64,000 bases of DNA from Amyelois transitella. Taxonomy: Eukaryota > Arthropoda > Insecta > Lepidoptera > Pyralidae. Shown here in pieces: positions 456-30,850 of the stretch. The stretch covers positions 4,794,001 through 4,858,000 of the forward strand of contig NC_083526.1 of NCBI RefSeq assembly GCF_032362555.1, read 5' to 3'. Made by a program: the position numbers and the translations under genes. The notes under the pieces were generated by a model that had not been told where the DNA came from, made no database searches, and saw only the letters and a list, made by a program, of their open reading frames with translations. Position 1 is the stretch's first letter; each line of letters starts with the position of its first letter.

Positions 456-1830
456 ATGTCAAATATATGAAACTCCTAAAATGTCAAAAGAAAATTAAAT
501 GGGAGTAAAGTGAAACCTTTTAATAGCTGTATGATTGAAATGAATAAAAAACAAATTGACGAGAGAAAGAAAGAGTGAACAATTTACGAGGATTAAACTA
601 AACACAATGGAAAGTTGATTGCGAAATATGAATGAAGCTTTCAAATGTGGGTCAAAAAGTTCTAAAGCATCGTACAAAATATGATGTCAAGCGACCTTTG
701 ATGGAGAAGTACACATAATATACTATTCAATTATATCTTTTGAAGTGTTTAAAGAAAGCATTAAGCAATCATTTGTGTATATTTATGTCGGTTATGGTTA
801 GAAGTTTCTCTTCTTTTTACAGATTGATTCGAGTCCATTTCTGCAATTTAACGTCTTTTTTGAAGCAATATAAATAAAAAGAAAGTGTTGCTAATCCCAA
901 TAGTCGATTTGGTAAAATTTTTATCAGTACCTTAAAAACGGTTTTAACTGACTTTTTTTGATGAAAATAAAACGTACTATTATTTCTTATAGACTTAAAT
1001 CAGAAAGGCCGTATTTTATTGCATCATAAACTTACAAAATAAAAGCGCTTACAACGAAGAAATTGATTGCATCTTACTATTTAATACCTTCTGAAGATCT
1101 AGACCAAGATCAACCAAGCTCTTAAGGGCTAGATTCAGCCCATGATTGTACAAAAGTGGAGCGTGAATTATCATGGCACAAATCAAAGAACTCTCACATT
1201 TTACCATGTGACATCAACCTATTATACAGTTCTCACGATGCTTTGTGTACAAAACTACAATAGGGAATGCATGACAGAACGCCAATGAAATAAGTGTGTA
1301 ATGGTTCAATTAAGAGTTTTCACATAAGGCAGCCAAATTTATAGATAGATAATATTAGGAAAGAAAACTAACTTAACATGGTTATGTAGTAACAATCAAT
1401 TGGCACCTGACAGACATTGCGAACATTTAATTTAGGAGAGATAATGAGATATAATAATCATAAAAGAAATAATCGATAAAATAATTTGTTTTTTTTTTTT
1501 TAATTTCACCGTAAATTTATCACGAAAACGATGACTTTTTCATAGAAGGCAATTAAGGAAGCCTACACAAAGCGTGATATTTTTTCTATACATTTGAATT
1601 TTGTTCGTTTTTTCTATTATTCTTTTCGATAAATCCGATGAATGGGAGATGAAAAAGATATGCGATCTCAAATAATGCGGAATTTTCACATTGACAAGGC
1701 TATCTTACCACAACCTATGGTTCTACCAACCTTCCGGTTGTAGGAGCGTCATCATAGGAAGAGGGTGATGCTCTCTAACAGCACACCCATTCTGGACCCC
1801 CTAAAAAACCTACTCAGTGTCCCTTTAGTT
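456..1830. other. AT-rich stretch, no gene seen
   Basis: A terminal exon of Osi-A would lie here or beyond position 1, but no AQxLAY-type or GLKKL-type coding was recognised on the minus strand. Confidence 0.35.
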
Positions 1831-18131: not shown

Positions 18132-18394
18132 CATACATACATACATATGGTCACGTCTTTGTCCCTTGCGGGGTAGACAGAGCCAATAGTCTTGAAAAGA
18201 CTGAATGGCCACGTTCAGCTATTTGGCTTAATGATAGAATTGAAATTCATATAAAGTGACAGGTTGCTAGCCCATCGCCTAAAAAAGAATCCCAAGTTTG
18301 TAAGCCTATCCCTTAGTCGCCTTTTACGACATCCATGGGAAAGAGATGGAGTGGTCCAATTCTTTTTTGTATTGGTGCCGGGAACCACACGGCA
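18132..18394 (-). mobile_element. SINE-like family 1, full-length copy
   Basis: (CATA)n tail at the left end through GGTGCCGGGAACCACACGGC. Confidence 0.8.
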
Positions 18395-18518
18395 CATAGG
18401 TAAATAGTTAGTAGATCGTTTAATTGATATCTCCTGACATTTTAACATCACGCTCTACACTACATAGTGTTTGGGACTTCTTGTGCCCTTGCATACTTCT
18501 AGCTCAATTCATACATAT

Positions 18519-18766
18519 ATATACTATAATCACGTCTATATCCCTTACAGAGTAGAGAGAGCCAACAGTCTTGAACATACTGATAGGCCTCGTTCAGCTG
18601 TTTAGCTTACTAATAGAATTCAAATAGTGACAGGTTGCTAGCCCATCGCCTAAAAAAAGAATCCCAAGTTCATGAGCCTATCCCTTAGTCGCCTTTTACG
18701 ACATCCATAGGAAAGAGATGGAGTACTCCTATTCTTTTTTCTATTGGCACCGGGAACCACACGGCA
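18519..18766 (-). mobile_element. SINE-like family 1, full-length copy
   Basis: Same orientation as the copy ending 125 bp to its left; ends GGCACCGGGAACCACACGGC. Confidence 0.8.
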
Positions 18767-19324
18767 TCTAAATTAGTAAATAGTAAACAAGTATTTATAA
18801 CGCATTAATATTTCCGGACTATAATGAAAGTATTACCGGCAAATTTGCGGTTTTTAAATAATTACTGTATCGTGATATGATCAATTATTTGTCATAATAC
18901 AAGACATTCACTTAGTTATAAGCCGACCGAATATAGAGTGCGTTTAGTAGAACTTAGTGTGTGGGTGACTGAGTTAAAATCATGCTAATAATATTCTTGA
19001 AAGTATTTGTTTTAACCACGACCCAAAAAAGAAAATAATTTTGTATAAATTTCAAATTTAATCGTAATGATTTTTTATCAATTAAGTACCTAAAGAATCG
19101 TTATGTTAGCTATGTTAAAAATAGTGTAACGAAAGATGTTATAACATGTTTTAATCAAAGTATGCCTAAAAAGGAACTTTATATGAGATAATATGCGACT
19201 GGAATAGATTTCCAAAACAGCTTCAAAAACGAACAATACGCAAACTCTTTAGATAGGATTGTTTTGTTTTTCTAAGTAGATAGATTCACTATTTTTATAC
19301 ACAAGTTTCATGGTTAAATCAATA

Positions 19325-19402
19325 CATATGGAGTCACGTCTATATCCCTTGCGGGCCAGACAGAGCTCAGTCTTGGAAAGACTGAAAGGCTTCGCTCAGC
19401 TG
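19325..19402 (-). mobile_element. SINE-like family 1, 3' fragment
   Basis: Only the tail third (ACGTCTATATCCCTTGCGGG to GCTCAGCTGTA), ending 86 bp before the DIRS left end. Confidence 0.6.
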
Positions 19403-19488: not shown

Positions 19489-19673
19489 AATTATGCTCGT
19501 GTTTCGTCCTCAAGATTAGCAAGATTATGGTTTGTTTACACATGTAGTTACACATGACATGTGCCGCCACAGCAGTGAATATTTGAGGTAGTCAAAAAAA
19601 AAAAATATATTGAACAAAATGTGGGTAGGACGCGCTATTCGCTTGGCTGCCAACTTCTTATTTCATACTCATT
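19489..19673 (+). repeat. DIRS left inverted terminal repeat
   Basis: Matches, as reverse complement, the right terminal region 24502-24658 from the CATACTCATT end back to TTGCTAATCT. The outermost part (to 19489) is unique and is mirrored only in the internal complementary region. Confidence 0.88.
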
Positions 19674-19728
19674 CACATTCAGTGCTCCGCCACAGCACGT
19701 CGCGCTTTTTATAAATTATTTCTTAATT

Positions 19729-21287
19729 ATGTCTTCTCGAAAACGTTTCAATAGTGATTCTGTCGAATTGAAAAAATTACTTAAAAAAGTGAAAAATTTA
19801 GAAAAGAAAGTCAATGATCGTAAACGTCGTCGGATAATTGAAGAAAGTTCTTCATCATGTTCATCGTCATCAGAATTGGCGGTTTCTTCACCAGCTCGGA
19901 GCCGTGCGCAGTCACCGGAAAACCTAGAAGGTACCTAGGATAAAACTTTATTGTGCTTAAAATAGCTTCCCCTGTGTTTGCGGTATAACAACTAAATCAG
20001 AGTTATACCTACACACCAACAGTAATTGCTTGACCTGCTGTTAGAAGCTATGCATTACTGGGTTTGCGATATAACAACTTATCTGAGTTATATCTACCCA
20101 CAAGACAGTAATGTTTCTTAATTCCACGCTGCTATTCAAGGACCTGCGTCGGGAATCCTTCATCTGTAGGATATCGCATTACTGGGTTTTTCGGTATAAC
20201 AAATAACAGAGTTATATCTACCCACTATATAGTAATGCCTTCTATTGCACATGCGGTTTTTTTTTTTACCGTTCATTTCGGGTTTACAACATTGTTGTTA
20301 CCCAAGTACCCACTTGCAATAATGCAACGTGTAATTAACGGCAGTAGCATTTAACGGCATAAAATTAATTTTTCAGGCGGAATCCAGCAAGTTCCCGTTG
20401 ATGTCCATGACATCCCACGGCTTCACAGCCGTTCACCCAGCCCATGTAGGGGTAATCTCGTCGCCGAAAAAGAGATGTTACCGTTGACCTGTCCTCCTAC
20501 TGCTAATACGGAGATTCTCGATGAGAATCTTATAGAACTAGATAGTTCTATTTTGGAAATTCTTGGAGAAGATCCCACGGCAGCTACCACATATGGTAAA
20601 GATATTCAAAAAGACCTGGCCGTTCGACTTGAGCATATCGCAACACAAGGGTTATCAAGGGAAACCCGCAAGGAGTTGCTCGAAAAATTCCTCATACCGA
20701 GTAATTGTACTCTTATTGATGCACCAGCCATTAATCCTGAAATAAAGGGCGCTATACCTATAGTAGTTGCAAAAAGAACTAAAGCTATGGAATACAAACA
20801 AAAACAATTAGCTGGTGCTATTGCGGGTCTCAGTATAATCATAACTCAATTAATTAACAAGAAAGATTCTAACTCGGAAATACTAAAAAAATTAATGGAT
20901 GTTTGTCGGTTACTGTGTGACTGTCAACACAATGATTCTGTTACAAGGAAGGGATTTATTCTGAGCACTCTTAAGAAAGATATGAAAGAACAAATAGAAA
21001 ATACTAAAATAGATAAGTTTTTATTCGGTAATGACTTGGCCGAAACTTTAAAAGCCGCTAAGGCTATAAATAAATCTAGTGCTGAACTTAAGCCAGTTCC
21101 TGTAAAGCAACCTACAAGAAAAGCAGCTAATTTCTCTTCAAAAAACGTGAAAGCACCCCCGAATCGTCGGGGGACTACATCAACATCACAAAGACCCCAG
21201 GAGACTGCGCCGGAGCGGCGGACGAAGCTTCAGCGCGCCAGCTCGTCGAGGACATCGCAGCGAGCGTCGAGACACAACCACCGCTAA
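19729..21287 (+). CDS. DIRS gag-like protein, spliced (370 aa)
   Basis: Exon 1 (19729-19930) encodes a basic coiled-coil start (LKKLLKKVKNLEKKVNDRKR) and a Ser-rich stretch, and would stop one codon after GAA GGT ACC. A gtacct donor at 19931 and a tttttcag acceptor at 20376 remove 446 nt and join in frame to exon 2 (20377-21287). Exon 2 runs through EKEMLPLT into the long gag-like frame and ends in a basic Arg/Ser-rich tail. The combined length is a multiple of three. Without splicing, the second part would start at ATG 20475. Similarity to DIRS gag is by position and composition; no zinc knuckle was seen. The splice is inferred from frame continuity. Confidence 0.7.
19931..20376 (+). other. 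putative intron of the DIRS gag, with hairpin array
   Basis: GT-AG bounded, 446 nt, with stop codons, joining two gag frames in matching phase. It contains three copies of a structured unit (19967-20238) and a T-run. Direct evidence is frame continuity only. Confidence 0.6.
19967..20238 (+). repeat. three ~63-nt nested hairpin units
   Basis: Units at 19967-20029, 20052-20114 and 20176-20238. The third is clearest: GCATTACT pairs with AGTAATGC, GGGT with ACCC, and TATAAC with GTTATA around a ~10-nt loop. The second shares nearly all of this. The first keeps the inner stem but has a worn outer stem. Spacing is uneven (85 and 124 nt), so this is not a simple tandem satellite. Confidence 0.8.
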
Positions 21288-21289
21288 AT

Positions 21290-23065
21290 TCGGTAAAATA
21301 TGCCGGTAGACTTTCTCATTTCTACTGCCAATGGAAATGTTTGACCAACGATCCTACCGTCTTATCATGGATAAAAGGTTATGAAATACCTTTCATTGAA
21401 CCACCAGTTCAGACAGTGTTGTATCAACGAACGACATTGCCTTCTAGTACTGAGAAAAAATATTTCGCAAAAGCCGTTCATAACCTTTTATCTATTGGAG
21501 CAATATCTACATGTGAACCCTGCGAAGGTCAATTTATTTCAAAGGTATTTTTAATACCAAAACCAAATGGAAAAATGAGATTTATACTAAACCTTAAACA
21601 ACTTAATAAATATATTAAAACTTGTCACTTCAAATTAGAAGATTTAAGGACAGCTGTAAAACTTATCTCGAAAGATTGTTTTATGAGTACAGTTGACATA
21701 AAAGATGCCTATTTTTTTATAAAAATCCATCAAAATTCGAGAAAGTACCTTCGATTTTCCTTAAACAATCAACTGTACGAGTTCAACGTTTTGCCTTTTG
21801 GCCTTAACACTGCTCCATTTGTTTTTACAAAAATTATGAAACCCATTGTTAAACTCCTTAGACAATGCGGGTACATTTCAATTATTTATTTAGATGATAT
21901 TTTTTTTTAATTGGAGATACCTATGAATCTTGTTTAGAAAATGTATCAAAAACTATAAAACTTTTAACCTCACTAGGTTGGGTAATAAACGAAGAGAAAA
22001 GTGTTCTTAAACCAAGTACATCAAGTAGATTTTTGGGGTTTATATTAGACTCTAAGCAAATGGAAATTAGTATACCTTCAGAAAAAATAAATAGAATTAA
22101 AAAAGAACTAGAAAAATTCATTAAATTAAATCGTTGTAAGATAAGAGACTTCGCTAGCTTACTAGGTTTGCTGGTATCTGCCTGTCCTGCTGTCGAGTAT
22201 AGCTGGCTTTACACAAAAGAGTTTGAAAGATGCAAATTCTTAAATTTACAACCTGATACAGATTACGATAAATATATGACCTTACCAAAATCATTAAATA
22301 AGGATTTTACTTGGTGGCTTAGAGCTATTAGGCACCCAAAATGTAAAATCAAGGACGAGGTCTTCGAATTAGAGATTTTTACGGATGCCTCAACTACAGG
22401 GTGGGGTGCGTGGTAAAAATACTGCCAGCGGCCCTTGGAGTGCAGATGAACAAAATAGACACATTAACTATTTAGAGATCTTAGCCGCATTCCTTGGCCT
22501 TAAGACCTTTGCAAAATATTGTTATGATGTTCAAATTCTTTTAAGGATTGATAATACAACCGCTATTTCGTATATAAATCGAATGGGTGGAATTCAATTC
22601 CCTCATCTTACGCAAATCACAAAGGAATTATGGCAATGGTGTGAAATGCGACAAATCCATGTTTATGCATCATACATCAATTCCTCGGCTAATAACATTG
22701 CTGATGCGGAATCTAGAAAACCGCATCCTGATATAGAATGGGAACTCGCAGATTGGGCTTTTCTTCAAATAGTTGATAGTTGGGGACTCCCAGAAGTTGA
22801 TATTTTTGCAAGCAGAATTAATGCTAAATGCAATAAATATATTTCTTGGCATAGAGACCCAGACGCAGTATTTGTCAACGCTTTTACAATATCTTGGTCA
22901 AATATATTTTTTTATGGATTTCCTCCATTTGCCATAATTCTTAAAACTCTTCGTAAAATAATATGTGATAAGGCCAAAGGAATCTTAATTGTTCCTCATT
23001 GGCCCACACAACCGTGGTTTCCATTATTTAGGAGCCTTCTTCAAACTGTACCAGTAATGTGGTGA
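21290..23065 (+). pseudogene. DIRS reverse transcriptase / RNase H, two frame breaks
   Basis: The frame opens after the gag stop. The region to 21910 carries RT motifs: STVDIKDAYFF (first catalytic Asp), LPFGLNTAP, and the YLDD box at about 21892-21903. A T-run at 21900-21908 then throws the frame into a stop. The next segment (about 21911-22416) continues RT and enters RNase H (EIFTDASTTGWG), and a second shift occurs at about 22408-22412. The remainder (to 23065) has the RNase H continuation (NYLEILAAFLGL) and the DIRS-typical domain VDIFASRINAKCNKY and PHWPTQPWFP. Each segment is well conserved, so the breaks are recent or are sequencing errors in repeats. No methyltransferase domain was recognised. 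Confidence 0.8.
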
Positions 23066-23068
23066 TAA

Positions 23069-24112
23069 TTTAATTTTATCTCATTCCAGCCCTCGCAACA
23101 TGCATCACCAGATTACCCTGGTTGCAGGGCTATTATCCGGTCAGCGCTTCTAGGAAGAAATATTCCTGCTCCTACCATCAAAATAATGATAGCTTCACTT
23201 TCGTCAAATTCAATTAAACAATATAATACCTATATTAAAAAATGGTATTTATATTGCATGAAAAATAACTTAGATATTTACCATGCTGATATCTCGAATA
23301 TCCTTAAATTCCTTACTGATTTATATGAATTAGGTGCACAATATAGCACGCTCAATAGCTGCAGATCAGCGCTAAAATTAATTTTTGGAGAAAATATCTG
23401 CGGCGATGATAGCATCCGTCGTTTCTTTAGAGGAATATTTAAATTGCGTCCTCCTCAACCCAAATACAATCTTACTTGGGATACTTCACAAGTTTTAGAC
23501 CATTTATCCACTTGGTACCCGAATGAGTCTTTGTCATTAGAGAAAATTTCTAAAAAATTAATAACTATACTTGCCCTAATCACGGCTCATAGGGCACAAA
23601 CTTTGTCGAAAATTTATATTCACAATATCGATATGCGTAATAGTGAAATTTTGGTTAAAATACCCGATTTTATTAAAACTTCTCGCCCTGGCGTACTACA
23701 ACCAGTATTAGTCATACTATATTTTTTAGATAGACTAGAAATTTGCCCAGCTAAAACACTTTGTTCTTATATAGAAATAACAAAGGACTTACGTGGGAAT
23801 ATTCAAAATTTATTTATAAGTCTGAAAAGACCATACAAACCTGTTACCTCGCAAACGTTATGCAGGTGGATAAAAGACGCACTTAAAAGTAGTGGCATTG
23901 ACGTATCTTTGTTCACGGCACACAGCACTAGGCATGCTGCTACTTCTAAGGCCATGAAACTCGGAATAAATTTAGATTTAATAAGAAAGACCGCAGGTTG
24001 GAGTGGAACCTCAAATACGTTTATAAAATTTTATAATCGTTCTATCAGAGATAATATGAGTAATGATCAATTTGCTAAGAGCATTGTAAGAAATTCTTTA
24101 AATAATAGTTAA
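23069..24112 (+). CDS. DIRS tyrosine recombinase
   Basis: An intact frame; the first in-frame Met is at 23186, but homology-like sequence (GCRAIIRSALLGRNIPAPTI) is open upstream to about 23069, suggesting translation by readthrough or an earlier non-AUG entry. Numbering from 23186, the core N-terminal SAM-like part has SLSSNSIKQYNTYIKKW. Catalytic positions are Arg136 (AHRAQTL), His246-x-x-Arg249 (HSTRH), Trp272 (AGWSG) and the nucleophile Tyr283 (KFYNRS). The protein would integrate the circular cDNA. Length is normal for a DIRS YR. All catalytic residues are present, in contrast to the broken RT frame next door. Confidence 0.88.
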   Translation, partial: FNFISFQPSQHASPDYPGCRAIIRSALLGRNIPAPTIKIMIASLSSNSIKQYNTYIKKWYLYCMKNNLDIYHADISNILKFLTDLYELGAQYSTLNSCRSALKLIFGENICGDDSIRRFFRGIFKLRPPQPKYNLTWDTSQVLDHLSTWYPNESLSLEKISKKLITILALITAHRAQTLSKIYIHNIDMRNSEILVKIPDFIKTSRPGVLQPVLVILYFLDRLEICPAKTLCSYIEITKDLRGNIQNLFISLKRPYKPVTSQTLCRWIKDALKSSGIDVSLFTAHSTRHAATSKAMKLGINLDLIRKTAGWSGTSNTFIKFYNRSIRDNMSNDQFAKSIVRNSLNNS

Positions 24113-24313
24113 ATTTATGAAAGAGTACCCACATTGATTGTTGTACTTACATTAAATGTTACTCTTTATTTAATTGTTACACTTACTGTTTTCTCTAAAA
24201 AATAATAATAAAAGCCTTCATTTTGCAGTTTAGTTTATTTTATAAACATTCATTATATGTATCATAGATATATCTGTGATATGTGGATGTTCACGCTTCT
24301 TCTCTCAACGTCT

Positions 24314-24443
24314 ACATGTGTAAACAAACCATAATCTTGCTAATCTTGAGGACGAAACACGAGCATAATTAATGATTAAACGAACTTACCTAGTGAAGTT
24401 CTATCATAATTATGCGAAGTGTTTCGTCCGAAGAGATTAGCAA
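24314..24443 (+). repeat. DIRS internal complementary region
   Basis: 24314-24370 is the reverse complement of 19489-19545. 24367-24443 is the reverse complement of 24652-24728, with all 77 positions matching. The shared AATT at 24367-24370 marks the circle junction. It lies just after the YR stop and an AATAAA-type signal (about 24203). Confidence 0.88.
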
Positions 24444-24501
24444 CCCACCCAACCCATATCCCCAAAGAATCGTGAAACATCCATGCTCCATACCTGAACT
24501 A

Positions 24502-24728
24502 AATGAGTATGAAATAAGAAGTTGGCAGCCAAGCGAATAGCGCGTCCTACCCACATTTTGTTCAATATATTTTTTTTTTTGACTACCTCAAATATTCACT
24601 GCTGTGGCGGCACATGTCATGTGTAACTACATGTGTAAACAAACCATAATCTTGCTAATCTCTTCGGACGAAACACTTCGCATAATTATGATAGAACTTC
24701 ACTAGGTAAGTTCGTTTAATCATTAATT
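24502..24728 (-). repeat. DIRS right inverted terminal repeat and outer end
   Basis: The inner part to about 24658 mirrors the left terminus. The outer 70 nt diverge from it but are mirrored exactly in the internal complementary region. Confidence 0.85.
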
Positions 24729-25318
24729 ATAAAGTCAATAATGTATTATACGACTATATTTAAAAAACAAATATATAAGGCATAACAATAACGAAGTTCA
24801 GACATAATTATAATGTATTCGTAATGCAAATTGTAATTTTTTAAATTTTTTGGTAAACTACTCCGTAAACAAAGTTAATTGTCAAAAGGGACATGGTAGT
24901 TATAAATTACAGATAGGTAGGTACTTACAAGGCAGTTTAAACCCATCGAAGACAATTAAGATTAACACTACTACCATTACCGCTTCTCGCTCCATTCCGA
25001 AACACCATTATTGCGAATTCTCGGGAATTCCACGGGAATCCTGAAGTCTTTCCGACGCTCTTGACACCGGCTGCACGATACACAGTGTCAGCACAAGATC
25101 ATGGTCATGCGAGCCGCCATATGTGCTGGTACACGCCTCAGTGCACGGCCATACGATGCAACGATTGCACGCTCTAAAAGATTTATAGATAAATGCAGTT
25201 CCCGGTGAAAATAGATAAATGCCAGTGCTCATGGATTTTCTGCACATTTCAATAGGCGCAACCGCTTTGACTGGACACTCGTCCAGCGTTTGATAAGCAT
25301 CCGCGGGTTTCAGTCACC

Positions 25319-26092
25319 ATGCAGTGCCGCGGACAGACAGTCTTCTTGTGCTTAAGTGTTTTACTTTCTCTAGCCTCTGCTGACAATTTCGGAGCAGGGC
25401 TCAAACTTCTTGGAAGGGTCTACGACAGCTGCGAGAGTTCAAAGGAGATTCTAAAGTGCTTTAAGGTCAATGCCGCTAAATTGGTCGACCGGGCCAGTAG
25501 GATGGAAACTCTTCCGATCTTGGACGGAATATCACTAGTCCGAAGATCGGATTTAGGTAGAGCGTTCCCGTCGTCACTTCCCGAAGGCGATTTGAATACT
25601 TTACCATCGGAACAAGTGGATAAATATCTCAATCTGGCAACGTCGAAACTAATGCAGACTCATCGTGTCGTGTTATCCCCAACAACCATAGGAACAGATG
25701 TAGCAAGATCAATGGACGAAGCTAGGGGTAAACTGAAGAAGATGATTGGCCCAATCCTAGCTGGTGTTGCTATCAAAGGCGGTTTCTTAGCAATCGCATT
25801 CCAGGCTATAGCTCTGATTGCTGGTAAAGCACTACTCATCGGAAAGATTGCGTTGTTATTATCTGCTATTATTGGTCTCAAGAAACTTGTATCAGGTGGT
25901 GAGTCTCACGAGAAGACAACTTATGAAATTGTGAAGCATCCGCAGGTGTCCCAGAGTCATACTTACTCGTCTTCTCATTACGGAGGTGACTTTGACGCCA
26001 CTGGCCCGGGTGGCCACTACAGAAGAAGCGTGGAGGATGAAGCGGCAGCACAAGACAGAGCATACAGGGCGTACGCTGCTAAACAGCAGTAA
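25319..26092 (+). CDS. Osi-B: complete intronless Osiris protein, 257 aa
   Basis: One uninterrupted frame from ATG 25319 to TAA. Residues 1-21 form a signal peptide. Cys38 and Cys47 give the two-Cys region (VYDSC ... LKCF), followed by the DUF1676 motif PILDGISLVRR at about 66-76. A long hydrophobic segment spans about 143-190 (GKALLIGKIALLLSAIIGLKKL at its end). The tail is His/Ser/Tyr-rich with YEIVKHP, then RRSVED and the terminal AQDRAYRAY motif (244-252), the Osiris AQxLAY signature. Length is normal for the family. The lack of introns contrasts with its neighbours here. Codon use is GC-richer than the flanks, so all other frames over it are shadows. Predicted secreted or membrane protein of cuticle-forming epithelia, from family knowledge. 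No strong TATA box was seen upstream. Confidence 0.95.
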   Translation: MQCRGQTVFLCLSVLLSLASADNFGAGLKLLGRVYDSCESSKEILKCFKVNAAKLVDRASRMETLPILDGISLVRRSDLGRAFPSSLPEGDLNTLPSEQVDKYLNLATSKLMQTHRVVLSPTTIGTDVARSMDEARGKLKKMIGPILAGVAIKGGFLAIAFQAIALIAGKALLIGKIALLLSAIIGLKKLVSGGESHEKTTYEIVKHPQVSQSHTYSSSHYGGDFDATGPGGHYRRSVEDEAAAQDRAYRAYAAKQQ

Positions 26093-30595: not shown

Positions 30596-30850
30596 GGTAT
30601 AAATATTAAATAAATAAATATATACGGGCAAATTACACAGATTGAGTTAGCCTCGTGGTAAGTTCGACATTTGTGTTACGAGATACTAACTCAACGATAC
30701 TATATATTATAATAAATACTTAAATAGATAAACATCCAAGACCCAGGCCAATCAGAGTAAGTCCATTTCTCATTATGCCCTGACTGGGATTCGAACCCGG
30801 GCCCTCCGGTGTCACAGGCAAGCGCACTACCGCTGCGCCACAGAGGCTAA
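30596..30850 (-). mobile_element. tRNA-derived SINE
   Basis: The minus strand begins GCCTCTGTGGCGCAGCGGTA (tRNA-like A box) and has a perfect B box in GGGTTCGAATCCCAG. It is followed by the lepidopteran body with GAGTTAGTATCTCGTAAC. This is a SINE head, not a functional tRNA. Confidence 0.75.

Follow-up and report, generated by a model that had tools for sequence, protein, structure and literature searches.

The constitutive transport element (CTE) of MPMV is a structured part of unspliced RNA in which sites are repeated, and pairs of the Rev/RRE type consist of an ARM peptide and its RNA. Psi, a structured 5' RNA, has a role in choosing the unspliced RNA via Gag (PMC5035971), the RRE is a structured element with several sites in unspliced RNA (PMC4488727), constitutive transport elements are named (PMC4829213), and the retrotransposon Cer1 of C. 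elegans needs its own protein CERV, produced from a spliced mRNA, for the export of its genomic RNA (PMC10309623). As for the DIRS group, DIRS-1 is described without an intron of its own in passages of one article (PMC5633606), and in the 2011 DIRS overview (PMC3266345) the terms "intron", "hairpin" and "secondary structure" occur zero times. Titles and the first lines of abstracts, a coverage with subscription journals mostly outside, contained nothing on DIRS gag genes that have introns or arrays of hairpins, and at this level the selection of their own RNA by tyrosine-recombinase retrotransposons seems to be undescribed.

Here we analysed a stretch of 64,000 nucleotides of Amyelois transitella DNA (hereafter the window), in which a DIRS-type element carries an array of hairpins within the intron of its gag gene. 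Similarly to Psi, the array would be a structured 5' RNA that, in the model proposed below, is bound by Gag to choose the unspliced RNA; unlike Psi, its units are repeated, lie wholly within the intron and differ in sequence from family to family, and Gag exon 2 is devoid of a zinc knuckle. The combination of structured, multi-site unspliced RNA with a basic peptide that the element itself encodes may resemble Rev/RRE, from which it differs in that the basic segment is Gag exon 1 itself and that the units have no Rfam match. The MPMV CTE may likewise share the arrangement of repeated sites within a structured stretch of unspliced RNA, whereas the DIRS units are separate hairpins with mostly pentaloops. 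Like Cer1, the DIRS element may be a retrotransposon having to move intron-bearing genomic RNA; Cer1 is, in contrast, an LTR element, and its abstract mentions no hairpin array. The DIRS units are assignable to none of the Psi, Rev/RRE and Cer1 families.

The DIRS element and its split gag gene

The structurally complete DIRS-type element occupied positions 19489..24730 on the plus strand of the window. Its left (19513..19673, +) and right (24502..24661, +) inverted terminal repeats, complementary to each other, paired at 100% in two arms, one of 92 nt and one of 79 nt, and its outer ends (19489-19547 and 24652-24730) were complementary to an internal region forming the circle junction (24312..24443, +), of which 59 nt paired with the left end and 79 nt with the right end at 100%. 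The pol gene (21131..23065, +) was broken into three overlapping frames in the window copy; a profile search revealed RVT_1 with an E value of 2e-18 together with weak matches to Dam (E 0.0036) and RT_RNaseH (E 0.0065), neither of which reached the curated cut-off. The open frame at 23069..24112 (+) encoded a tyrosine recombinase (Pfam Phage_integrase, E 5e-12 at 23069-24109). With RT, RNase H and a Dam-like methyltransferase in pol, a tyrosine recombinase instead of an integrase, and inverted terminal repeats plus internal complementary regions, all as in DIRS1-like elements, the window element is a DIRS1-like retrotransposon. Since the circle-junction repeats lie elsewhere, at 24312-24443, a template for circle formation, one of the jobs that the sequence-only reading had suggested for the hairpins, is unlikely.

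Around the element, the frame of a DUF1676 gene (25271-26092), a domain that marks Osiris genes and agrees with an insect source, started ~0.5 kb beyond the right end, and the insertion could influence the promoter of this neighbour. To the left, two segments 86-100% alike lay 371-372 nt apart (18255-18785), and a 34-nt motif occurred at 18150, 18529 and 19333 (region 18150-19366). Elsewhere in the window, a tRNA model matched barely over its threshold at 30776-30847 (-).

Exon 1 of gag (19729..19930, +) comprised 67 codons with a coiled-coil-like stretch, a Lys/Arg-rich motif (KKVNDRKRRRII) and a Ser-rich tail. It was followed by a phase-1 GT-AG intron (19931..20376, +), predicted from the frame and the splice sites and located 442-887 nt from the left end of the element, and by exon 2 (20377..21287, +), an open frame joined in phase 1. 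Exon 2 was alignable to the gag of nine other families with 28-43% identity and contained no CX2CX4HX4C zinc knuckle; the fold of the window Gag was predicted with low confidence (mean pLDDT 58.5, pTM 0.31).

In the introns of other DIRS copies, splice sites and unit patterns were picked after inspection, and the phases were calculated later. All 15 gag introns that were parsed, of 16 tried, were in phase 1, with the first 50 codons of exon 2 open in each; locus L069, in which the donor and six units were present, was excluded from the intron analysis owing to the acceptor marker missing from the fetched stretch. Alignment of the window exon 1 peptide with 14 other exon 1 peptides indicated that exon 1 spans 30-67 codons across families; most of the peptides combine a KK[LIM]xKLExK stretch with a cluster of Lys/Arg and end in a Ser/Asp tail. 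Lys plus Arg exceeded Asp plus Glu in all 15 peptides, and a Lys/Arg cluster was recognized by eye in 14 of them; exon 1 of L083 was without such a cluster, yet its intron carries an array. In unspliced RNA, the basic exon 1 frame would stop 1-29 codons beyond the donor (two codons beyond it in the window).

Hairpin units and the conservation of their pairing

Folding, unit comparison and a covariance model confirmed what the sequence-only reading had reported, namely three nested-hairpin units of ~63 nt inside the DIRS intron (19966-20239, +): unit 1 at ~19966..20030, unit 2 at ~20051..20115 and unit 3 at ~20176..20239. Their spacing was uneven, as had been stated, at 85-86 and 124-125 nt from one unit to the next. 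The reported stacking of three stems held for units 2 and 3, which consisted of an 8-bp outer stem, GGGT/ACCC and an 8-bp inner stem and gave fold energies of -16.6 kcal/mol (z -2.5) and -17.5 kcal/mol (z -3.0), respectively. Unit 1, in contrast, kept only the inner stems, as its degenerate 5' outer arm TTCCCC was unable to pair with AGTAAT, in line with the claim that the stems are best kept in units 2 and 3; in the whole-intron fold it was closed instead by ATAGCTTC/GAAGCTAT plus a side hairpin. The described divergence outside the stems did not apply to parts of the loops, which were likewise conserved between the window units. The whole intron folded with a z of -3.2, none of 100 shuffles being as good (z -3.7 in a run of 60 shuffles). 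All variable paired columns among the three units remained standard pairs, including GGGT/ACCC versus GTGT/ACAC and G-C/A-U/G-U in the inner stem, and two pairs were altered on both sides; with only three sequences, 118 of 500 shuffles did equally well, and the window units by themselves carry little statistical weight.

An Rfam covariance-model search at the gathering score returned no match on the window units, on account of which a ribozyme or another known RNA family was set aside, and none in the introns of 15 other loci; its one tRNA match, just above threshold at 1524-1595 (-) of L069, lay on the element strand upstream of gag and thus outside that gene. Tandem Repeats Finder detected no array at the window units, and this result and the arm-swap test below oppose a satellite or tandem repeat of near-identical, unconstrained units.

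For the arm-swap test, the 5' and 3' arms of 55 units from 14 introns were permuted between units within each family; L075 (a sister of L074) and the near copies L072, L080, L084, L085 and L090 were left out, and a further L073 unit from the mismatch scan described below was not included. The duplex energy of the outer stem was -353.4, compared with -305.1 ± 11.2 after permutation, and none of 200,000 permutations was as good. The same was true upon omission of the window family (0/200,000), and upon omission of L068 as well, 6 of 100,000 permutations were as good. The inner stem formed 258 pairs versus 250.5 ± 2.3 in the permuted sets (14 of 200,000 as good). Covariation was also evident within single families and classes: in L079 both sides had changed in 7 of 11 pairs, with no shuffle of 500 as good; the GTTAAC-CGTGA class (13 units in four families) gave 0/500 on pairing, changed cells and covariation score, its counts of pairs (52/500) and pair types (494/500) not standing out; and in L068, 2 of 500 shuffles were as good. 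L083 (37/500) and L086 (97/500) were weak when taken alone. These observations strongly supported that the hairpins are a selected structure kept paired through compensatory change. Compensatory stem changes in related DIRS families, together with the presence of the units in all 11 copies of the window family (see below), also bear out the earlier view of a selected structure rather than a satellite.

As a check on the choice of units, a pairing-blind mismatch scan of 14 DIRS stretches was performed, which added one unit (L073 intron) and one weak reverse match (L079 intron); beyond the introns, these stretches yielded no unit. A repeated-hairpin score of at least 3 was reached by 10 of 15 introns, by 0/15 exon 2 stretches and by 0/360 other window segments; among the 360 background segments, 15 attained a score of 2, and when the window element was scanned as 32 sliding stretches, two in its AT-rich 3' part reached 3. 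The score was 1 for L070 and for the window family, whose loops differ in length. The fold z of the intron was below that of exon 2 in only 11 of 15 cases. Sense and antisense strands were equally stable, 23 of the 45 distinct units favouring the one and 22 the other (Wilcoxon p 0.96), and in the inner stems G.U pairs outnumbered A.C by only 12 to 4 (two-sided p 0.077). Given this equal stability, the folds themselves do not favour RNA over DNA, and it is the intron context that suggests RNA.

Copies of the element and arrays in other DIRS families

All the evidence derives from one genome (327 Mb, 33 contigs). A DNA search with unit 2 gave 23 matches in 11 places, and every place was a DIRS copy, so that the search for the unit outside DIRS elements that the sequence-only reading had proposed returned DIRS copies only (E ≤ 0.001). 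The hairpin units and the intron were present in all 11 copies of the window family, contrary to the case, also envisaged there, of units missing from most copies. Unit 2 was identical across 76 nt in each of the 11, and the covariance model R1 recovered three units at 59-90 bits in every copy plus an extra one in L008; in the window, nothing besides the units exceeded 14 bits. The extra, fourth unit of L008 was identical over 74 nt and belonged to a near-exact tandem duplication (1503-1814, 124-nt period), which is array growth caught in progress. When the older copies L002 and L008 were compared with the window, the units differed at 7 of 388 sites, the other intron sequence at 16 of 494 and gag exon 2 at 71 of 1765 (units versus exon 2, p 0.035; units versus the rest of the intron, p 0.21), and the non-coding units therefore change no faster than the coding sequence.

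Genome-wide searches for a joined exon junction, allowing up to three mismatches and run without a positive control, yielded 0 matches for the window family, as opposed to its 11 intron-bearing copies, and 0 for the L077 family, of which the genome contains eight three-unit arrays. As no spliced copies were found, either the intron is retained in the copied RNA or intronless copies fail.

The pattern GGTTRACCGTGNRTY matched the genome 36 times versus twice for the reversed control; 34 of the 36 matches fell into 11 arrays of 2-4, and two were single. For nine of the 11 arrays, a DIRS recombinase followed 2.8-2.9 kb downstream on the same strand. The array at C32:6029732 was 14 kb upstream of a recombinase, the fetched part of the gap (L082) having no gag-like frame, and that at C32:1515149 had no recombinase match nearby. 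On contig C32 (12.4 Mb), recombinase matches were numerous, a considerable share being fragmentary, and this contig might represent a sex chromosome or some other chromosome rich in repeats.

The window recombinase had at least 118 matches in the genome (the recombinase match counts are lower bounds), many at 46-54% identity with open frames, and the 5' part of gag was examined in 24 copies of other families. A donor, an intron and an array of 2-10 units were present in 20 of the 24. An exon 1-like frame was recognized by pattern in 18 of these 20, L075 being read separately; in the other four copies (L082, L088, L089 and L091), which seem truncated or disrupted, the pattern recognized no exon 1. 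Each of the 14 DIRS families read had its gag split at the same phase, the first exon being short and in most cases rich in Lys/Arg, and the gag intron held 2-10 hairpins of family-specific sequence, some of them in related classes, with gag exon 2 being 24-57% identical among ten aligned families. The arrays lay near the donor in some families and near the acceptor in others, at no fixed distance from a splice site. A distant recombinase retroelement, L092 (26% YR identity), had a single-frame gag with a Ser-rich and basic N-terminal part, in which no array of three and no intron were evident.

With the stems as defined for the unit set, 11 of the 14 families had only pentaloops, and letters of loops and internal loops were conserved between units and across four families with 49-57% gag identity. 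L077 and L078 shared a 17-nt unit core despite a gag identity of 50%, and the seven 11-mers common to their introns equalled the number contained in this core. A recombinase tree, in which 7 of 12 sequences were kept, the rest being too short or missed by its motif, paired L071 with L075, whose units are alike. Most pentaloops of L074, L076, L077, L078, L081, L083, L086 and L087 fit YGNGN (CGTGA, TGTGG, CGGGC) and might descend from one shared ancestral hairpin, a link that the model R2 did not detect beyond its own four families.

A single unit model for all families was discarded, as R1, applied to the window, its copies and L068-L077, matched the window family alone. R2, run on 25 sources, exceeded 16 bits only in its own four families, so that homology of the unit classes across all families is not supported. 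A pseudoknot between the loop CGTG and a downstream CACG was dropped as well, because L078 is without CACG and the E2 loop is changed.

A candidate signal of the unspliced RNA

Because the intron would have to go for Gag, yet stay in the RNA that is reverse-transcribed, there would be a need to tell two RNAs apart. We infer both the ligand and the job of the hairpins from this context: the array may be a cis-acting signal of the unspliced genomic RNA, bound multiply, probably by the basic N-terminus of Gag, for packaging. This reading is tentative, and we give it a probability of roughly 0.45. The intron would be spliced out solely to make the Gag mRNA, and the hairpins, confined to the unspliced RNA, would distinguish the genome RNA from that mRNA. 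The lack of a CX2CX4HX4C knuckle in window Gag exon 2 makes the basic N-terminal segment encoded by exon 1 the candidate reader, which, substituting for the missing knuckle, would bind the stem and loop of several units and would thereby earmark the unspliced RNA to be packaged and reverse-transcribed. The array would be required in cis, with intronless copies as dead ends, and in each lineage the units would duplicate and diverge, while stem pairing and the loop would be retained. In a self-contained form of such a circuit, which we regard as rather unlikely, exon 1 would provide an arginine-rich peptide and the intron its multi-copy hairpin target, only unspliced RNA would be exported or packaged, and peptide and hairpins would co-evolve into a family-specific code; if true, this would explain how over a dozen families reside in one genome without cross-packaging their RNA.

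Nuclear export rather than packaging might be the primary job: in the manner of Rev/RRE or a CTE, the array would be bound by the exon 1 peptide (37-81 residues if translated from unspliced RNA) or else by a factor of the host, which would carry the intron-bearing RNA from the nucleus, with packaging secondary. The stop of the basic exon 1 frame 1-29 codons past the donor, the multi-unit array in the intron and the precedent of CERV, an export protein of the retrotransposon Cer1 made from spliced mRNA (PMC10309623), are consistent with export, whereas the exon 1 of L083, devoid of a Lys/Arg cluster, is not, and we consider this reading unlikely. Splicing control in cis, in which the hairpins would slow or balance the use of donor and acceptor and leave RNA unspliced with no special binding protein, would agree with the location of the units inside the intron, with array positions that are donor-proximal in certain families but acceptor-proximal in the rest, and with the retention of stems whose outer sequence is free. 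Loop and internal-loop letters, unneeded for mere structure, are nevertheless conserved among units and across four families, and the distance to either splice site is not constant, which makes control of splicing distinctly unlikely. We rank packaging by Gag first, ahead of export through an ARM peptide or a host factor and, in third place, splice balance; these are not mutually exclusive.

Two further explanations would dispense with a function in the RNA. If template switching perfected hairpins without selection and slippage multiplied them, neutral quasi-palindromes would result, as might be expected from the equal stability of both strands and from the tandem duplication seen in L008 (extra unit, 124-nt period). 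Such arm correction would, however, erase G.U pairs, bulges and asymmetric loops, whereas a bulge recurs in all three L079 units and a G.U pair in all three L068 units; moreover, the loops are conserved across families and the units were confined to the intron in the 14 scanned stretches, so that this origin is improbable. The other proposal, a small parasitic hairpin element or satellite multiplied locally, had been raised by the sequence-only reading and found no support. The variable number of units (2-10 per intron) would suit it, but the window unit occurs only in DIRS copies, the units of an intron share one orientation (except for the weak reverse match in L079) and differ between families, arrays, for the most part at DIRS elements, account for 34 of the 36 genome matches of one class, and 9 of the 11 related arrays lie upstream of a DIRS recombinase; we regard it as very improbable.

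With an array at the same position in 14 families and compensatory stems, RNA selection by DIRS elements becomes directly testable; the arrays also offer an RNA handle for annotating these elements, and the diverged hairpin/peptide pairs form natural sets for studies of RNA recognition. In wider searches, viral contigs contained only six distant recombinase loci (23-25% identity), eight stretches with the unit pattern, none of which had a unit by covariance model, and no match in a gag alignment search. Phages gave no match, and an RT search of prokaryote genomes gave no match.

Besides the hairpins, the 9-mer CTACCC[TA]CA had exact occurrences in 6 of the 15 DIRS introns, and two others contained it with a single mismatch. 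Its exact copies are at 20094-20102 and 20218-20226 of the window and in the introns of L071, L073, L077, L078 and L086, and outside the window family they lie apart from the hairpins. This 9-mer, spotted after the fact, may be a second shared intron signal.
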